Source: Candidatus Gordonibacter avicola (GTDB taxonomy: Bacteria; Actinomycetota; Coriobacteriia; Coriobacteriales; Eggerthellaceae). Taken from it: DNA of 64,000 nt. The notes under the pieces are model-generated. The model did no database searches. It was not told the origin of the DNA and worked only from the letters and a program-made list of their open reading frames with translations. Numbering within the stretch: the first letter of the stretch is position 1; each line of letters starts with the position of its first letter. Both the position numbers and the translations under genes were made by a program. Of the stretch, positions 11,574-19,517 are shown piece by piece. Location: positions 1 through 64,000 of the forward strand of contig DXGM01000010.1 in NCBI GenBank assembly GCA_019113915.1. Reading direction: 5' to 3'.

Positions 11574-12458
11574 TCACACCTGAAGGGCCAGCTCATAGGC
11601 CGCATTGCGCGCAATGCCAAACTCGTCAGCCAACGCGCGCGCGATGTCCTTCTTCGACGCACCCGCAGTGCGCAACTCAGCCGCACGCATGCGAGCTGCA
11701 TCGGCAGCATCCTCGGCCGCAGCAGCATCCTCCGCCGCGTTCGGGCCGTCTACTACCACCACAATCTCGCCCTTCACGCCGCGTCCGTCACCCGCTTCGG
11801 CCACGCGCCGCGCAAATTCGTCGCGCACCTCACCCACTGCGCCGCGCACCACTTCCTCGTGCAGCTTCGTGAGCTCGCGACATACCGCCACCTCGCGCTG
11901 CGGGAACGCCTCAGCCAGCGCCTCCAGGGCACTTACCAGGCGGTTCGGACTCTCATAAAACACGAGCGCCGCATCCAGTGCGCGCACACTTTCCAGAAGC
12001 GCCCTCCGCTCAACATCCTTGCGGGGCAGAAAGCCACCGAAGTAGAAGCGCGGGTTGTCGCACCCGCTCGCCACATATGCCGCGGCCACCGCAGTCGGCC
12101 CCGGCAACACTTCCACCGCAGCGCCCGCTTCGCGCGCGGCCCGCACCAGGCGCAAGCCCGGGTCCGACACGCCCGGCATACCCGCATCCGAGCAGTACAC
12201 CACCACTTCACCATCAAGCACGCGCCCCACAATACCGGCCGCGCGGTCGCCTATGAGCGCCTCATCCAACCGCTCAAGCCGCTTCCCTATCCCAAACGCG
12301 GCCAGAAGCCGACCCGTCACGCGCGTGTCCTCCGCGCACACCACATCAGCCGCGCGCAACGCCGTGAGCGCACGCTCGGTTATGTCTCCCAAATTCCCCA
12401 AGGGCGTGGGGCATATCACCAGCTTACCGGGCACATTTGCCTCCCCGTATTCACTCAT
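11574..12458 (-). CDS. rsmI: 16S rRNA (cytidine(1402)-2'-O)-methyltransferase
   Basis: RsmI methylates the ribose of C1402 in the decoding centre. It has the tetrapyrrole-methylase fold: CPTPLGNLGDITERAL near residue 16, AEDTRVTGRLL, CSDAGMPGVSDPG and VLPGPTAVAAAYVASG. An Ala-rich linker is followed by a C-terminal helical segment (ASKKDIARALADEFG) as in longer members. At 294 residues the length is normal. Its ATG overlaps the stop of a 42-codon membrane-protein gene as ATGA, and a metallopeptidase gene follows at its own stop. Confidence 0.93.
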   Translation of the reverse strand: MSEYGEANVPGKLVICPTPLGNLGDITERALTALRAADVVCAEDTRVTGRLLAAFGIGKRLERLDEALIGDRAAGIVGRVLDGEVVVYCSDAGMPGVSDPGLRLVRAAREAGAAVEVLPGPTAVAAAYVASGCDNPRFYFGGFLPRKDVERRALLESVRALDAALVFYESPNRLVSALEALAEAFPQREVAVCRELTKLHEEVVRGAVGEVRDEFARRVAEAGDGRGVKGEIVVVVDGPNAAEDAAAAEDAADAARMRAAELRTAGASKKDIARALADEFGIARNAAYELALQV

Positions 12459-12583
12459 CGTCCGCGCCGCATGAACACAACTGCCACAACTACCGCAATC
12501 AGCGCCACCGCAACGAGTGCCACCACCAGAAACAGCACCGGGCTATCCCCCGTGCAGGCCAGGCCACCCTGAACGCCTTCCAT
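12455..12583 (-). CDS. 42-residue single-span membrane protein
   Basis: A very short gene: ATG with GAGG five bases before it, 42 codons, and a TGA that overlaps the rsmI start. The product has a short N-terminus containing TGDSP, a strongly hydrophobic stretch of ~23 residues and a positive RRGR end. This looks like the C-terminal half of a sortase-type sorting signal or a simple tail-anchored microprotein. Tight coupling with rsmI supports translation. Function unknown. Confidence 0.5.
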   Translation of the reverse strand: MEGVQGGLACTGDSPVLFLVVALVAVALIAVVVAVVFMRRGR

Positions 12584-12776
12584 ATTCGCCTCATCTTCAC
12601 GTGCCGAACAGTGTATGCTCACATTGTCCGCCATCGCCCTCCCATTGGCAAACCCTCACGCTTTCGCCCGCTCGCCCCTGCCCCTCGCCTTTCGTCCCCG
12701 CACCCCCACAAGCGGCACATGAAAACCTTCTCTTTCCTCTTCATTCACAGCGAGTCAGATAAGATAGTGACCGGGG

Positions 12777-12821
12777 GTGTGCTATCCTGATTCTCGCAGA
12801 ATAGCCCCTACGTAATAGCAC
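12777..12821. promoter_or_regulatory. inverted repeat upstream of the cheR operon
   Basis: TGTGCTAT and ATAGCACA flank about 29 bp just before the cheR start. It could be an operator or fold in the 5' leader. No convincing -35/-10 pair was assigned. Confidence 0.3.
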
Positions 12822-12833
12822 ACAAGAGACCCT

Positions 12834-13649
12834 ATGCAGCATATGAGTGATACCGAATTCGAACGAACCTGCACCCTTATCTCCCGTGTGCTCGGACTTG
12901 AGATGAGGGCTAAACGTGTTCTGCTTGAATGCCGCCTCACCCGCGAGCGCGAGCGCCTTGAGCTGCCCTCATTTACTGCCTACCTCAACCTCATTGAAAG
13001 CGGCGCGAACCCGCGCGCGTTCCAGCGATTTGTCGACCTTGTTACCACCCACTACACCTACTTCATGCGCGAAAGTTCGCAGTTCTCGTTCCTGGAACAC
13101 GTGGCGTTTCCCGAGCTGGAACAGCGCATTCCCGAGCGCCCGTGGAAAATCCTCTGCGCCGGCTGCTCTACGGGCGAAGAAGCCTACACACTTTCCATGC
13201 TTGTGGAAGAGTACAGCCGCTCCCGCAGCCTACCCCCAGTCACCATCCGCGCGATTGACGTGTCCGAACCCGCACTGGAGGCGGCCCGCCGCGGCATCTA
13301 TTCCGCGTCACACATTGACAAGGTGCCCCTTCTCTGGAAGTCGCTCTACTTTTCTCGCGAAGGGGAGCAATTCCGCGTCGTCCAAAGCATACGCAATCGC
13401 ATAACGTTCCAAAGCGCGAAGCTGGGCGACGCCAACGCACTCAGAGGATCCTACGACCTCATCATGTGCCGCAATGTACTTATTTACTTCACGCAAGATG
13501 CGAAAGAGCGGGCTCTCAATCAGCTCCATCGACACCTTGAGCCGCAGGGTTTTCTCGTGCTCGGCCATGCGGAAATTGCACGAGATCGCGAAAAGTTCAC
13601 CTACGAAGGCAATTCGATCTATCGAAAGCAGGAGGCATCCATCCGATGA
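12834..13649 (+). CDS. cheR: CheR-type protein-glutamate O-methyltransferase
   Basis: Methylates glutamates on chemoreceptors using SAM. The 271-residue protein has the N-terminal helical CheR domain and the methyltransferase domain: [14 protein letters not shown] for [14 protein letters not shown] for the ribose, then [12 protein letters not shown] and a C-terminal GFLVLGHAE. First gene of a tight five-gene operon; the next gene starts inside its stop (ATGA overlap). No cheB methylesterase is encoded, so the balance of receptor methylation would be unusual. Confidence 0.93.
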
Positions 13650-15208
13650 AGCAACGCTTTAAGAATATGAGTATCGGCACTATGATCATGCTGTCCTATG
13701 TCGTTGTCATGGTGCTGTTCATCACGTCGGCTGGTGTCGCGTTCTACGCCATCCACTCCAACGCCGCCATGACCAGCGAGTTTTACCAGCGCCCCTTCCA
13801 AGTGACGAAGTCGTCCATGCAGTTGCGCAGCGCCATCGAGCAAACCGCCAACTGCCTCGGCCAGCTGGTCGATGAGAGCGCCAGCGCGCAGCAGACCAAA
13901 AATCTTGCCGCTATCGAGCAGTACAGCGAAGCGCGCAACCAGGAGTTCGCCTTCATATCCAACACGTTCACCGCCGACCCAGCTCTGCTGGAGCGTTTCT
14001 CCGAGGCAAACGACAAGCTGGTCGCCGTCCGCGACAAGGTGCTCACGGCCGTTAAGCAGGGCGATTACGAGCGCGCCTCAAACCTGTACACCGACGATTA
14101 CCTCCCCCAAAAGGAAACGACGTCCGGCTTGGCGGACGACATTGTGGACACCGCGAATTCCGTCGCCACCACCTTCGTGCAGACCTCTCAGGAACTGGAA
14201 ATCAAGACGGTGGTCATTGTGGGCGTTGGAGCCCTGATCACGCTTTTGTTGGTGGTTCTCATGTGGCGCGCGCTCGCACGCGCTATCACCAAGCCGACGC
14301 TGGCCATGCAGGCAGCCGCCCAGCGCATCGCTCAAGGTGACCTCACGGCTTCCGTCGAATACGAGTCGGAAAACGAACTGGGCGCCGTGGCCGCCTCTAT
14401 CAACCAAACTGCACGCTCTTTGCACAACACTCTGGACAAGATTGGCGAGGCGGTCGAACAGGTGACGCGCTCGTCGTCACAAATGTCCGACGGCGCGCAA
14501 TCCATCGCCCAGGGCTCGGCGGAACAGGCCATGTCCATTGAAGAGCTGGCCACGAACGTGCAAAACATCGACCAAGTGGTGAGCGAAAACACCGAAAGCG
14601 TGCTGGTGGCCAACAACAGCACCACCGACGTCCTAGCCGCCGTGGCCGACGGAAACGACCATATCACGCGAACCGCGCAGATAATCGACCAGATCAAGCG
14701 CAATACCGAGAACATTTCCCAGCTGGCCAACAACATTGAAGACATCTCATTCCAAACCAATATCCTGGCCCTGAACGCCTCGGTTGAGGCGGCGCGCGCA
14801 GGAGAAGCCGGGCGCGGGTTCTCCATTGTGGCCGAGGAAATCAGGCGGCTGGCCGCTCAGGTGAGCGACGCATCCAAGGAAGCCGACACGCTCGCCGACC
14901 ACACCATTTCCGGCATTCAAACCAGCTCGGCCATGATCGACGAAGCCGTGCGCAACATGACGGGCGCGGTGGAGGCCACCGAAAACGTGAAAGCCATGAT
15001 GTCGAGCATCGCCGAAACCTCCACGCAGCAGCAGGAAGCCGTCGCGCAAATTCGCGAAAGCATGGATAGGCTTTCCGACGTCGTGCAGGAGAACTCGGCC
15101 TCCGCCGAAGAGAGCGCCGTTATTGCGGAGGAACTGTCTTCCCAGGCTGAAGAGCTGCAACACCTTATGGATCGGTTCAATCGCGGCGAGGATGAGCACG
15201 CCCGATGA
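13646..15208 (+). CDS. methyl-accepting chemotaxis protein
   Basis: A 520-residue transmembrane receptor: TM1 at about residues 13-35, a ~150-residue helical periplasmic domain of the four-helix-bundle type, TM2 near 190-210, a HAMP segment ([20 protein letters not shown]) and a long cytoplasmic coiled coil. The signalling tip ([20 protein letters not shown]) is conserved, so it should dock CheW/CheA-like proteins. No C-terminal CheR-tethering pentapeptide is seen. It overlaps cheR by 4 bases and the next gene by 4 bases. Confidence 0.95.
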
Positions 15209-15867
15209 CCGCCACGCACTCATTCCCCGCATCCGCACACGTCCCCACACCCGCACCCGCGGAGCAGGCGAACTCCTTAGCGCAGCTGCACGAGGAAAAC
15301 GCGCGCCTGCACAAGGAGAACGCCCGGCTGCGCGAGGAACTAACCTTTTTGCGCGGCCTCGCCTTTCGCGATCAGCTGACCGGCCTCTACAGCCGCCGCT
15401 ACCTGACCGAGTACCTGGAGCGAGAAATTGAAGAACGGTCGGTCGAAACATCGGTTGTGCTGGCGTTGTGCGACATCGACGACTTCAAAAACATCAACGA
15501 CGCGCGGGGACATCGCGCAGGTGACATCACCATCGTCTGCATCGCCGACATTCTGGACGACCTCGCTGCAGATCAGCCGGTCATTCGTTGGGGAGGCGAA
15601 GAGCTGCTCATCGTGCTGTTCTCCATGGGAACTTCCGAAGCACTGCGTCTGTGCGAGAAAATACGCGCGCAGGTGGCCTCCTACCGCATCAACGATGGCT
15701 ACGGCGAGTTTTCCTGCACGCTGACGTTTGGCGTGGGTGCATTCGATTCGCAATACACCTTCGCGGAAAATTTCGCCCGCATCGACCGCGCGCTGTACCG
15801 CGGAAAAGAAACGGGCAAGAACTGCTGCATCTTAGCGCTCCCCGCCGCCCACGAAGAGGAACGCTAG
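15205..15867 (+). CDS. soluble diguanylate cyclase (GGDEF domain)
   Basis: A 220-residue protein: a Pro-rich start, a short coiled coil (about residues 25-48, heptads of Leu/Glu/Asn) and one GGDEF domain. [14 protein letters not shown] and [11 protein letters not shown] are intact, and the active site reads GGEEL, a functional variant. The RxxD inhibitory site is absent (LAAD at that place). It has no receiver or membrane domain, so its input is probably the coiled coil or a partner from the operon. It is coupled to the receptor gene by a 4-base overlap. Predicted product: cyclic di-GMP. Confidence 0.9.
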
Positions 15868-15868
15868 T

Positions 15869-17404
15869 ATGAGGTATCCCGAGCTCATAGCGCAGGTCAC
15901 CTTCAAGCCCAACTGCGATTTGGAAAACACCCGCGCCTCGCTTATCATCCGGCGTATCGCGCGTTTGTGCGAGCGGGTGTCGTGCTATCCCAACAATGTT
16001 GGCGGCGACACGGGAACCATTTCCTACCTGCGAGACCATGGGCTCTACGTGCGCTTTTGTTCGACCCAGCCCGAACAGGTGCTGCTGACCATCCGCAGTT
16101 CGTTCTACGTGGAAACGTGCACCCTCGTACACGACGCGGACGATATTCCGGTGTACGAGGCGCTGTTGTCAACGGCGGACGAGCACTGGACGCACGATGC
16201 TACGCGGCCCTCGCCGGCGTTCCAAAGCGGTGACGACAAGCGCAACAGCGAGTTGGTACGCCAGTTGCTTCACTTCGATGACGTGCGACGTCGGCTGCGC
16301 GCCTGCGCCTTACGACATCCTGAAGACCGCGAACTTGATGACGTGGCCTTTCTACAGGAAAAGACTGCCGACGAATTGCGCACCCTTGTTGCACGCTCGC
16401 GTATGCAGCCGTTCAAGTCAATTACCGCCTCGCTGCAATCCCTTACCACCTCGTATGCCACTCGGTTCAACGTGGAAGCGGAGCTTAAGGTAACCGCCAC
16501 CGATCTGGAAGTTGACCAGAGCGTTCTCGGTTCGCTTGAAGAAATAATTAAGCGTCTGATCAGGGTTTATATACGTGAAAGCATCGAAAGCCCCGAGGAG
16601 CGGCGCGCGGCGGGTAAGCCAGCACGAGCCACCATTCACGTTTCGGTAGAAACCGACGGTGCCACGGTAATCTGTCGGTGCGAACATGATGGGCGCGCCT
16701 ATCAAGCACAGGTGGCCGGCAAGCTTGCCCAAGAAAGAGGCCTGCTCACGCGCGACCTTTCAACCTACAGCGAAAGTGATATCGGCAGGATTGTTCTTAT
16801 GCCCCATTTTCTGGCCGACAGCGAGGACCGCTTCGGCACAGCGTTTAAGATGAAGGAAATAAGCTCCATTCTGCACCAAAGCGGCGGGCATGGCAGCATC
16901 CGCAACACTGAACACGGAACTGTCGAAGTCTCGCTGTTTTTGCCAGTGCCGTTTATCGCGCTTGATGTGGCGCTTCTGAGATGTGGTACCAACGAGATAG
17001 CCATTCCTGCATTTCGGATTGAGCGCTTTGAGCGGTTCTGCGCCGAGCACGTCCACGCGCCGCAAGACAGTACGAGCAAAACGCCAAAGGAGAATAGCTT
17101 TAGCTACCAAAGCGAAAACGGTACGAGCTACCCTCTTATCAATGCCGAGAATTCGCCTCTGGGCGCCGCGCGTCCGCGGCTTGTTGGCTTCCTCAGTTGC
17201 CGTGAGGGCCATGCCGCCCTACTCATCGACGAAGCCGACGGGTACGAACACGTGGTGGTGCACCCCCTGCCGCGCACGCTTGAACGTGAGGTGACAGGTG
17301 TAAACAGCATGGGGTTCGCCCTGCTCGCCGACGGGTCGCCGCGGCTGGTGCTCAACGTGGTGCTGATGATTGCCGCGTTGAAAGGTGGTGTTGTAGATGC
17401 GTGA
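15869..17404 (+). CDS. CheA-like protein lacking Hpt and with degenerate ATP-binding site
   Basis: A 511-residue protein that aligns with the C-terminal part of CheA. Residues 1-100 resemble the P2-type domain (VTFKPNCDLENTRASLIIRR); there is no P1 phosphotransfer domain before it. A coiled-coil dimerisation region follows (~165-200). The kinase-like domain keeps the landmark SPEERRAAGKP (241-251), but the N-box reads RLIRVYIRESIE where CheA has its essential Asn and His. The G1 box is EHDGRAY and the G2 glycines are lost. Residues ~365-505 form a CheW-like domain. It is therefore likely a scaffold or pseudokinase rather than an active kinase (inference). It starts just after the cyclase gene and overlaps the CheW-like gene. 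Confidence 0.78.
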   Translation: MRYPELIAQVTFKPNCDLENTRASLIIRRIARLCERVSCYPNNVGGDTGTISYLRDHGLYVRFCSTQPEQVLLTIRSSFYVETCTLVHDADDIPVYEALLSTADEHWTHDATRPSPAFQSGDDKRNSELVRQLLHFDDVRRRLRACALRHPEDRELDDVAFLQEKTADELRTLVARSRMQPFKSITASLQSLTTSYATRFNVEAELKVTATDLEVDQSVLGSLEEIIKRLIRVYIRESIESPEERRAAGKPARATIHVSVETDGATVICRCEHDGRAYQAQVAGKLAQERGLLTRDLSTYSESDIGRIVLMPHFLADSEDRFGTAFKMKEISSILHQSGGHGSIRNTEHGTVEVSLFLPVPFIALDVALLRCGTNEIAIPAFRIERFERFCAEHVHAPQDSTSKTPKENSFSYQSENGTSYPLINAENSPLGAARPRLVGFLSCREGHAALLIDEADGYEHVVVHPLPRTLEREVTGVNSMGFALLADGSPRLVLNVVLMIAALKGGVVDA

Positions 17405-17879
17405 TAATGAACGCCGCCTCGCCTGGATCGAAAGCCTTATTGGCGCGAGGCCCAACCTGGTGCCGCGCTCAAACGTGGTAACCGTTTCCTCTGATCACGG
17501 GCCGCTTGCCCTTCCTTTTGCCTTCATCGAAGAAATCGTTCCCGGCTCCTCTCTGCGTCCGTTCGCCTTTCTTCCGGCGTGGTTTTGCGGAACGGTAGCC
17601 AGGGGAGTTGACCTGTATCCGGTTCTCAACCTGGGAGGCGCACCGCAGGCACGGACGAGTATCGCCCTCGTGAGCCATGACGAGCGCGCTTGCGGCTTTC
17701 GTTTTTCTGGTGCGCCGCAGGTCGTTGACCTGGACACCGTGGGTGCCGTGACCAACCTTGCGGAAGGGGAAATCCCTCTGCCGTTTCCGCTGAGTGCTTC
17801 CAAGCGCTTCGAGGGGCCAGCGGGACCCACGCTATTGCTTGACGTGCCCGCCACCCTGCGCGCGCTCTGCGAGGCGTAA
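17397..17879 (+). CDS. CheW-like protein
   Basis: A 160-residue protein with one CheW-type SH3-like pair: LPFAFIEEIVPGSSLRPFAFLP, a GTVARGVDLYPVLNLG core and a C-terminal LLLDVPATL strand. These match the canonical CheW positions where the first module meets GxxxxRGxxxPVxDL. It would couple the receptor to the CheA-like protein. It overlaps the preceding gene by 8 bases and ends the operon. Confidence 0.82.
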   Translation: MRDNERRLAWIESLIGARPNLVPRSNVVTVSSDHGPLALPFAFIEEIVPGSSLRPFAFLPAWFCGTVARGVDLYPVLNLGGAPQARTSIALVSHDERACGFRFSGAPQVVDLDTVGAVTNLAEGEIPLPFPLSASKRFEGPAGPTLLLDVPATLRALCEA

Positions 17880-18008
17880 GACCGACACTCGGCCGTTACC
17901 GTTTCGGAACCGTTCGCTAACGACCGCGCGTCCCGGCGCGCGGCGCCTTCCTCTGGGCCTATCATCGCACGAACTAACCCACACTTTCAGGAAAAGGAAG
18001 GCCCGCCC

Positions 18009-19517
18009 ATGACTTCAGAATCTTCCGTCCGCGCCTCTGCCACACCTGCCGCACCGCGCCCCTACGACGGTCTGGATAAGCTTTTTGTTGCCGGCACCTG
18101 GCGCGATGGTGGCAGCGGTGAAACCACCCCCGACGTGAACCCCTACAATCAGAACATCTTGGCTGAGCACGTGCTGGCCGACCGCCACGATCTGGACGAA
18201 GCGTACGCAGCCGCCGCACGCGCCCAACACGAGTGGGCCGCCGCTGCGCCCGCCGAGCGCGCGAACGTGTTGGCCCGCGCCGTGCGCATCTTCGACGAAC
18301 GCCGCGAGGAACTGATTGGCTGGTGCCAGCGCGAATCGGGCAGCGTCCGCGCAAAAGCCGAGTTCGAGGTGAGCGCCGCGCGCGATATTACTGCGGAGGC
18401 CGCGTCGTTCCCCTACCGCATGGACGGCGACATTTTCGGCTCCGACATACCGCACAAGGAAAACCGCGTCTACCGCCAGCCACTGGGCGTGGTGGGTGTC
18501 ATCAGCCCGTGGAACTTCCCCATGAATTTGTCGAACCGCTCGGTGGCCACGGCTCTGGGCTGCGGAAACACGGTGGTATTGAAGCCCGCCAGCGACACGC
18601 CTATCACGGGCGGCCTGCTTCTGGCAAAGATTTACGAAGAAGCGGGCTTGCCGGCTGGCGCGCTGTCGGTGCTGGTGGGACGCGGCAGTGTCATTGGCGA
18701 TTACTTCGTGGAGCACCCCGTGCCGAAACTCATCACGTTCACGGGTTCCACGGCCGTCGGTCGCGGCATCGCCGCCAAGACAGTCGCGGGAACACGCATC
18801 AAGCGCGTGGCACTGGAGCTGGGCGGCAACTGCCCCTTGGTGGTGCTTGACGATGCCGACGTGGAACGCGCCGTAGATATCGCCATCATCGGACGCTTTT
18901 TACACCAGGGGCAAATCTGCATGAGCACGAACCGCATTATTGTGGACGCCTCGATAGCGAACGCCTTCACTGAACGCTTTGTGGAGCGCGCGAGCAACCT
19001 GGTGTGCGGCGACCCGCTGGATCCGGCCACCAACATTGGTCCTATCATCAACGAATCCCAGCTCAACGGCCTGTTGGACAAGGTAAAGCGCGCCGAAGAG
19101 CAAGGTGCCCGCGTGCTTCTGCACGGCGAGCCGGAAGGCCTCGTGCTGCCGCCCGTGGTGTTTGGCGACGTGGACCCCATCTGGGACATCGCCCTACAAG
19201 AAAGCTTCGGCCCGCTGGCACCCATCATCGTGACACACGGAGAGGACGAAGCGCTCGAGTGTGCAAACATGAGCGACTACGGGCTGTCATCGGCCGTGGT
19301 GGGTGGCGACGTGGAGCGCGCGACCGCCTTCGCCTTGAAGATTGACGCCGGCATGACCCACGTGAACGACATGTCCGTGGCCGACGAGCGTCACGTGCCC
19401 TTCGGCGGCGAGAAGAACTCGGGACTCGGCCGTTTCAACGGCCGCTGGATCCTTGAAGAAATGACCCGCACCCACTGGACCAGCATCCAACACGCCCCCC
19501 ACCCCTACCCGTTCTAG
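18009..19517 (+). CDS. NAD(P)-dependent aldehyde dehydrogenase
   Basis: A 502-residue ALDH-superfamily enzyme that oxidises an aldehyde to the acid. Visible: the NAD-binding VISPWNFPMNLSNRS, TFTGSTAVGRGIAAK, the general-base ELGGNCPLVV and the catalytic cysteine in GQICMSTNRI, then ESFGPLAP. The PFGGEKNSGLGRF end and overall pattern resemble benzaldehyde/vanillin-type dehydrogenases. The start has AAGGAAGG upstream. It is alone on its strand; its stop codon overlaps that of the convergent hydrolase in CTAG. Substrate not determinable. Confidence 0.92.
   Translation: MTSESSVRASATPAAPRPYDGLDKLFVAGTWRDGGSGETTPDVNPYNQNILAEHVLADRHDLDEAYAAAARAQHEWAAAAPAERANVLARAVRIFDERREELIGWCQRESGSVRAKAEFEVSAARDITAEAASFPYRMDGDIFGSDIPHKENRVYRQPLGVVGVISPWNFPMNLSNRSVATALGCGNTVVLKPASDTPITGGLLLAKIYEEAGLPAGALSVLVGRGSVIGDYFVEHPVPKLITFTGSTAVGRGIAAKTVAGTRIKRVALELGGNCPLVVLDDADVERAVDIAIIGRFLHQGQICMSTNRIIVDASIANAFTERFVERASNLVCGDPLDPATNIGPIINESQLNGLLDKVKRAEEQGARVLLHGEPEGLVLPPVVFGDVDPIWDIALQESFGPLAPIIVTHGEDEALECANMSDYGLSSAVVGGDVERATAFALKIDAGMTHVNDMSVADERHVPFGGEKNSGLGRFNGRWILEEMTRTHWTSIQHAPHPYPF

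Follow-up and report, generated by a model that had tools for sequence, protein, structure and literature searches.

Gene content of the operon

Five open reading frames lie on the forward strand at 12834-17879 of the window, i.e. of the whole 64,000 nt stretch that was analysed. They encode a CheR methyltransferase, a chemoreceptor (MCP), a GGDEF protein, a CheA-like protein and a CheW-like protein. A summary is given in Table 1. Adjacent frames overlap by 4 (cheR/mcp), 4 (mcp/GGDEF) and 8 bases (cheA-like/cheW-like) or are separated by a single base (GGDEF/cheA-like), in agreement with the sequence-only reading of five genes with overlapping or nearly adjoining ends. Promoter and terminator scans upstream of cheR gave nothing convincing. 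No Rfam family was found in the window and hence no known c-di-GMP riboswitch. The operon is flanked by rsmI and an aldehyde dehydrogenase gene (window 11574-19517). In relatives (L011, L012, L013, L015, L017) it is, unlike in the window, located downstream of the aldehyde dehydrogenase gene.

Table 1. Genes, domains and motifs of the operon. Positions refer to the window.
Feature	Position	Strand	Basis
cheR, receptor methyltransferase, 271 aa	12834-13649	+	Pfam CheR E 2e-47
mcp, transmembrane receptor 4HB-HAMP-MCPsignal, 520 aa	13646-15208	+	Pfam
Receptor hairpin tip, predicted CheA P5/CheW contact, residues 355-410	14708-14875	+	near-invariant in 8 orthologues
Receiver-less diguanylate cyclase, short coiled-coil stalk and GGDEF domain, 220 aa	15205-15867	+	Pfam, alignments
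GGEEL active-site motif, residues 130-134	15592-15606	+	alignments
cheA-like, CheA pseudokinase P2-P3-P4-P5 with degenerate P4, P1 missing, 511 aa	15869-17404	+	structure matches, alignment
P2-like domain, residues 1-90	15869-16138	+	Pfam P2 sub-threshold; conservation
P3 dimerisation helices, residues 123-190	16235-16438	+	predicted helical pair; Foldseek CheA P3-P4
Degenerate P4, GHKL fold, N/G1/G2 boxes lost, residues 191-360	16439-16948	+	alignment; predicted fold
P5, CheW-like regulatory domain, residues 361-505	16949-17383	+	structure matches, Pfam, predicted fold
cheW-like coupling protein, 160 aa	17397-17879	+	AlphaFold model

The receptor consists of the Pfam domains 4HB, HAMP and MCPsignal (E 1.3e-32). 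Its distance from HAMP to hairpin tip fits the 36H class, and the NCBIfam alignment shows no change in length. The tip is almost invariant across eight orthologues, which bears out the earlier claim that the CheW/CheA-binding tip is kept. It is the only MCP of its own genome. Moreover, among 61 genomes scanned for receptors exactly the eight with the CheA-like protein have one, one each, and the 53 non-carriers have none. The CheW-like protein stays below Pfam cut-offs. Its AlphaFold model (pLDDT 82) matches CheW structures with an E value of 7e-8, whereby all top matches are either CheW or CheA P5. The operon hence combines a chemoreceptor with conserved signalling tip and a CheW.

An orthologue of cheR is found in all carriers of the operon. 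Its 5' half is lost in L034 (genome G104) and its frame is shifted in L016 (genome G035), while the other four operon genes are intact in both genomes. CheR may therefore be dispensable. A CheR that is not accompanied by CheB points to methylation that is slow or runs one way.

The third gene product contains a GGDEF domain (Pfam E 1.3e-32) preceded only by a short coiled-coil stalk. Pfam shows no further domain, in particular no receiver, and the GGEEL motif as well as the metal- and substrate/guanine-binding residues of the cyclase are invariant in the alignments. The sequence-only reading of a receiver-less GGDEF protein with GGEEL thus holds. By sequence the active site is intact, and the protein would be expected to be catalytically active. 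An RxxD inhibitory site is missing and replaced by a stretch without Arg. Product inhibition via this site therefore seems unlikely, leaving room for control by a partner. Set against 18 further GGDEF domains from the order, the cyclase stands apart as a subfamily of its own, in which many invariant positions are not shared with the others. With a mean pairwise identity of 70% it is conserved better than any other gene product of the operon, and its best match in the PDB is SiaD (7e6g).

The CheA homologue and its lost kinase elements

The product of the fourth frame stays below Pfam cut-offs as well. Its sequence matches P3-P5 of CheA structures (E 1e-17) and its predicted fold matches CheA structures with an E value of 1e-24 (Foldseek). 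P1 is missing. We aligned the nine full-length operon proteins with 24 canonical CheAs of the phylum. The motifs HxxRNxxDHG, DxGxG and GRGVG are kept in 24/24 canonical proteins whereas none of the three is found in any of the nine operon proteins, i.e. the N, G1 and G2 boxes for ATP binding are intact in the former and lost in the latter. In the N box Asn is replaced by V, S, A, L or M and Asp by R. In the G1 box Asp is replaced by an invariant His and the second Gly is gone, as are the glycines of G2.

The nine proteins form one clade with a support of 100/100 on a long stem. Hence the loss of the kinase elements is ancestral and fixed and not an error. Homologous to CheA by sequence and fold and deprived of the catalytic elements of a functional kinase, the protein is a pseudokinase as judged by its residues.

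A Pfam P2 match is located at the N-terminus in 7/7 orthologues (E ~5e-4), each below the cut-off. A search of the P2 profile against the PDB matched no chain. Mean pairwise identity within the CheA-like proteins is 0.67 for P2, 0.52 for P3, 0.55 for P4 and 0.45 for P5, so that the P2-like domain is their most conserved part. The protein had been called degenerate before; we can specify that P1 and the whole ATP site are lost and that P2, P3 and P5 are kept.

Distribution and genomic context of the carriers

The CheA homologue is found in 10/138 Eggerthellaceae genomes. These carriers belong to five genera, and all ten have the gene order cheR, mcp, ggdef, cheA-like, cheW, counting one carrier with cheR as a 5'-truncated remnant. 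An identical order in ten carriers of five genera excludes a chance arrangement. The cyclase, whose absence from the operon of related species would have argued against the sequence-only reading, is present in 10/10. Named records among the carriers include Gordonibacter spp., Paraeggerthella hongkongensis and Eggerthella sinensis. The type strain of Eggerthella lenta is described as non-motile (PMC3035228). A scan of a genome collection with peptide patterns of the CheA-like protein reached close relatives only, since these patterns are narrow. On plasmids, only distant CheA relatives with <25% identity were found among the matches listed.

All five genes are under purifying selection (dN/dS well below 1). 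For the CheA-like protein dN/dS is ~0.15-0.35 in the closest pairs, and values for receptor and cyclase are similar. Divergence of the CheA-like and CheW-like proteins is faster than that of the cyclase; coupling contacts may hence be loose.

The CheA-like protein of the window groups with those of G104 and G035 (support 99/99) and not with those of other Gordonibacter genomes. The flanks of the operon, however, are 81-87% identical to Gordonibacter. This disagreement, together with the different position of the operon, suggests that it was transferred or replaced within the family. In G. pamelaeae 7-10-1-b (L017, assembly 82% complete) the frames of cheA-like, aldehyde dehydrogenase and rsmI are all broken. 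As the two neighbours are affected too, the frameshift in the CheA-like gene is probably a sequencing error.

Further chemosensory wiring was searched for in the carriers. CheW-domain matches above background lie only within the operon in all ten genomes (remaining listed matches have E values of 0.1 or worse); a further CheA or CheW is hence absent. CheB was not found in the ten genomes either. The window's own genome contains 30 receiver domains and none of them is a stand-alone receiver of the CheY type, the smallest open frame with a receiver having 233 aa. None of its 15 larger receiver loci contains GGDEF, so a receiver-GGDEF protein is not found there. The absence of CheB, CheY and an active CheA, as read from the operon before, thus extends to the genomes, namely to ten of them for CheA and CheB and to the window's own for CheY. 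An active CheA with CheY elsewhere that would serve this receptor, which would have spoken against the earlier reading, was not found in these genomes. With the kinase elements lost and no CheB, no other CheA and no CheY of its own genome at hand, an output by phosphorelay appears very unlikely.

Flagellin and PilZ domains were not detected in the ten carriers whereas the controls were. Eight genomes (G000-G004, G007, G011 and G035) encode 18 to 45 GGDEF domains each and no PilZ. By this count the c-di-GMP effectors of the carriers would be of another kind than PilZ.

A putative kinase-free array and known systems

The operon combines a c-di-GMP synthase with a kinase deprived of its catalytic parts. 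Based on this, the sensor probably relies on contact between proteins and not on phosphorylation. Array assembly is plausible since P5, P3 and CheW are kept: receptor, CheW-like coupler and P5 of the CheA-like protein would come together at the tips of the receptor, just as they do in ordinary arrays. Ligand and CheR methylation would set the state of the receptor, which in turn would shift position or exposure of the domains of the CheA-like protein. Lacking P1 and the ATP site, the latter may serve as scaffold and conformational relay. With phosphotransfer ruled out on sequence grounds, the signal would have to be passed on from the array through conformation or through recruitment. The presumed output is the dedicated GGDEF protein of the same operon, which would be recruited or paired through its coiled-coil stalk such that c-di-GMP synthesis goes either up or down.

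P2 of ordinary CheA docks the response regulator. We thus regard the conserved P2 domain as the likeliest contact site of the cyclase, because the cyclase is encoded between mcp and cheA-like and because P2 is both the most conserved part and an output-docking domain. A kinase-free array with a CheA-like relay and the operon cyclase as contact-controlled output is in our view the best explanation and a fairly probable one. The weak, sub-threshold P2 matches, the damaged CheR of two carriers and the faster divergence of the CheA-like and CheW-like proteins weigh against it. That it is the first array to signal without phosphotransfer, by contact of the CheA-like protein with the cyclase via a repurposed P2, is put forward more tentatively, as we are not quite half convinced of it.

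Alternatively, the kinase-free array could be real while the cyclase contacts receptor or CheW directly or is merely co-expressed, whereby the CheA-like protein would be a filler of the lattice. The kept P5, P3 and CheW are in line with this, as is the cyclase gene between the receptor gene and cheA-like. However, the best conserved part of the protein is the P2-like domain, and ordinary arrays do not use P2 to build the lattice. The CheA-like protein hence seems to hold a partner, and we consider this alternative rather unlikely. Less probable still is that the array controls another target, e.g. a transcription factor or a receiver from a different two-component system that docks on P2, with the cyclase downstream or in parallel. 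P2 of known CheA is a binding site for response regulators, and the window's own genome encodes 30 receiver domains, all of them located elsewhere than in this operon, as well as 17 additional GGDEF matches. A stand-alone receiver, however, is missing from this genome, and the cyclase is always present and more conserved than any other operon gene.

The operon could also be a decaying chemotaxis relic of bacteria that lost their flagella, given a flagellin gene in 0/10 carriers, CheR broken in two of them and the lost ATP site of CheA. Against this, carriers of five genera have intact frames with dN/dS values well below 1, the active site of the cyclase is invariant and the frameshift in G. 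pamelaeae is probably a matter of sequencing. A pseudogene remnant was rejected based on dN/dS and intact frames, and we regard decay as highly improbable. Finally, it is barely credible that the CheA-like protein is still a kinase, of an unusual kind whose ATP boxes are altered and whose P1 comes from another protein: the GHKL fold is kept and activity persists in some pseudokinases, but no member retains Asn/Asp in the N box, Asp and the second Gly in G1 or the glycines in G2, and a phosphate acceptor is missing, i.e. there is no CheB and, in the window's own genome, no stand-alone CheY.

Returning to the contact-controlled array, no paper on the operon was found in the open-licence literature. 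A survey of actinobacterial chemosensory classes does not mention Eggerthella (PMC10746217). Within this scope the sequence-only suggestion of an undescribed system is upheld, and the operon is apparently a real, conserved and undescribed kinase-less chemosensory module. The kinase is the defining part of a chemosensory array. If the proposed mechanism is true, a change of conformation would be enough for a receptor array to drive an output, and the lattice function of CheA would be separable from catalysis. Moreover, a named sensory input would be added to the c-di-GMP signalling of gut bacteria that are common in humans (the Eggerthella/Gordonibacter group, E. lenta included).

According to a review, those chemosensory systems that act on c-di-GMP fall into either the ACF or the type-IV-pilus class, and kinase and receiver are counted among the minimal parts of a chemosensory system (PMC8846402). 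Among the closest comparisons is Wsp (WspA-F and WspR, ACF class, Pseudomonas), likewise an operon of receptor, coupler, CheA homologue and methyltransferase tied to a diguanylate cyclase. The sensor domain of WspA is 4HB as in the operon receptor (PMC8846402). Wsp, reported only from beta- and gammaproteobacteria, has the active kinase WspE, the methylesterase WspF and the phosphorylated receiver-GGDEF protein WspR (PMC8552884). All three were looked for and are absent here: the GGDEF protein has no receiver, the CheA homologue lacks P1/Hpt and the ATP boxes, and a CheB methylesterase is missing from ten genomes. Hence the operon is no Wsp system, although it likewise ties a receptor operon to a cyclase.

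In another family of Coriobacteriia, chemotaxis operons of the F1 class (L059-L061) also encode CheR, receptor and CheA at a single locus, followed downstream by GGDEF; the canonical che operon there (CheR, MCP, CheY, CheB, CheA, CheD) closes with a GGDEF protein whose architecture is another one (L059 10798-12294; also L060 and L061). Unlike the operon described here they have an intact CheA, CheY, CheB, CheD and a longer receptor hairpin, and their GGDEF protein differs in its N-terminal part with ~33% identity to the operon cyclase. Owing to these CheY/CheB/CheD operons, intact kinases and the different GGDEF architecture, the canonical CheAs of other Coriobacteriia, which were considered as possible ancestors, represent another system.

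The BdlA/NicD dispersion pathway of P. aeruginosa also links a chemotaxis-transducer protein to cyclic-di-GMP enzymes. It has no CheA/CheW array operon, and activation of BdlA requires phosphorylation and proteolysis, after which it activates phosphodiesterases (PMC9769550). SiaABCD of Pseudomonas aeruginosa has no chemoreceptor, CheA or CheW, and SiaC is unrelated to the CheA-like protein. SiaD moreover has an inhibitory site (PMC8457831), whereas RxxD is missing from the operon cyclase. Nevertheless SiaD is a receiver-less GGDEF protein with a stalk as well, and its activation by the bound partner SiaC (PMC8457831) is a precedent for a cyclase switched by protein contact.
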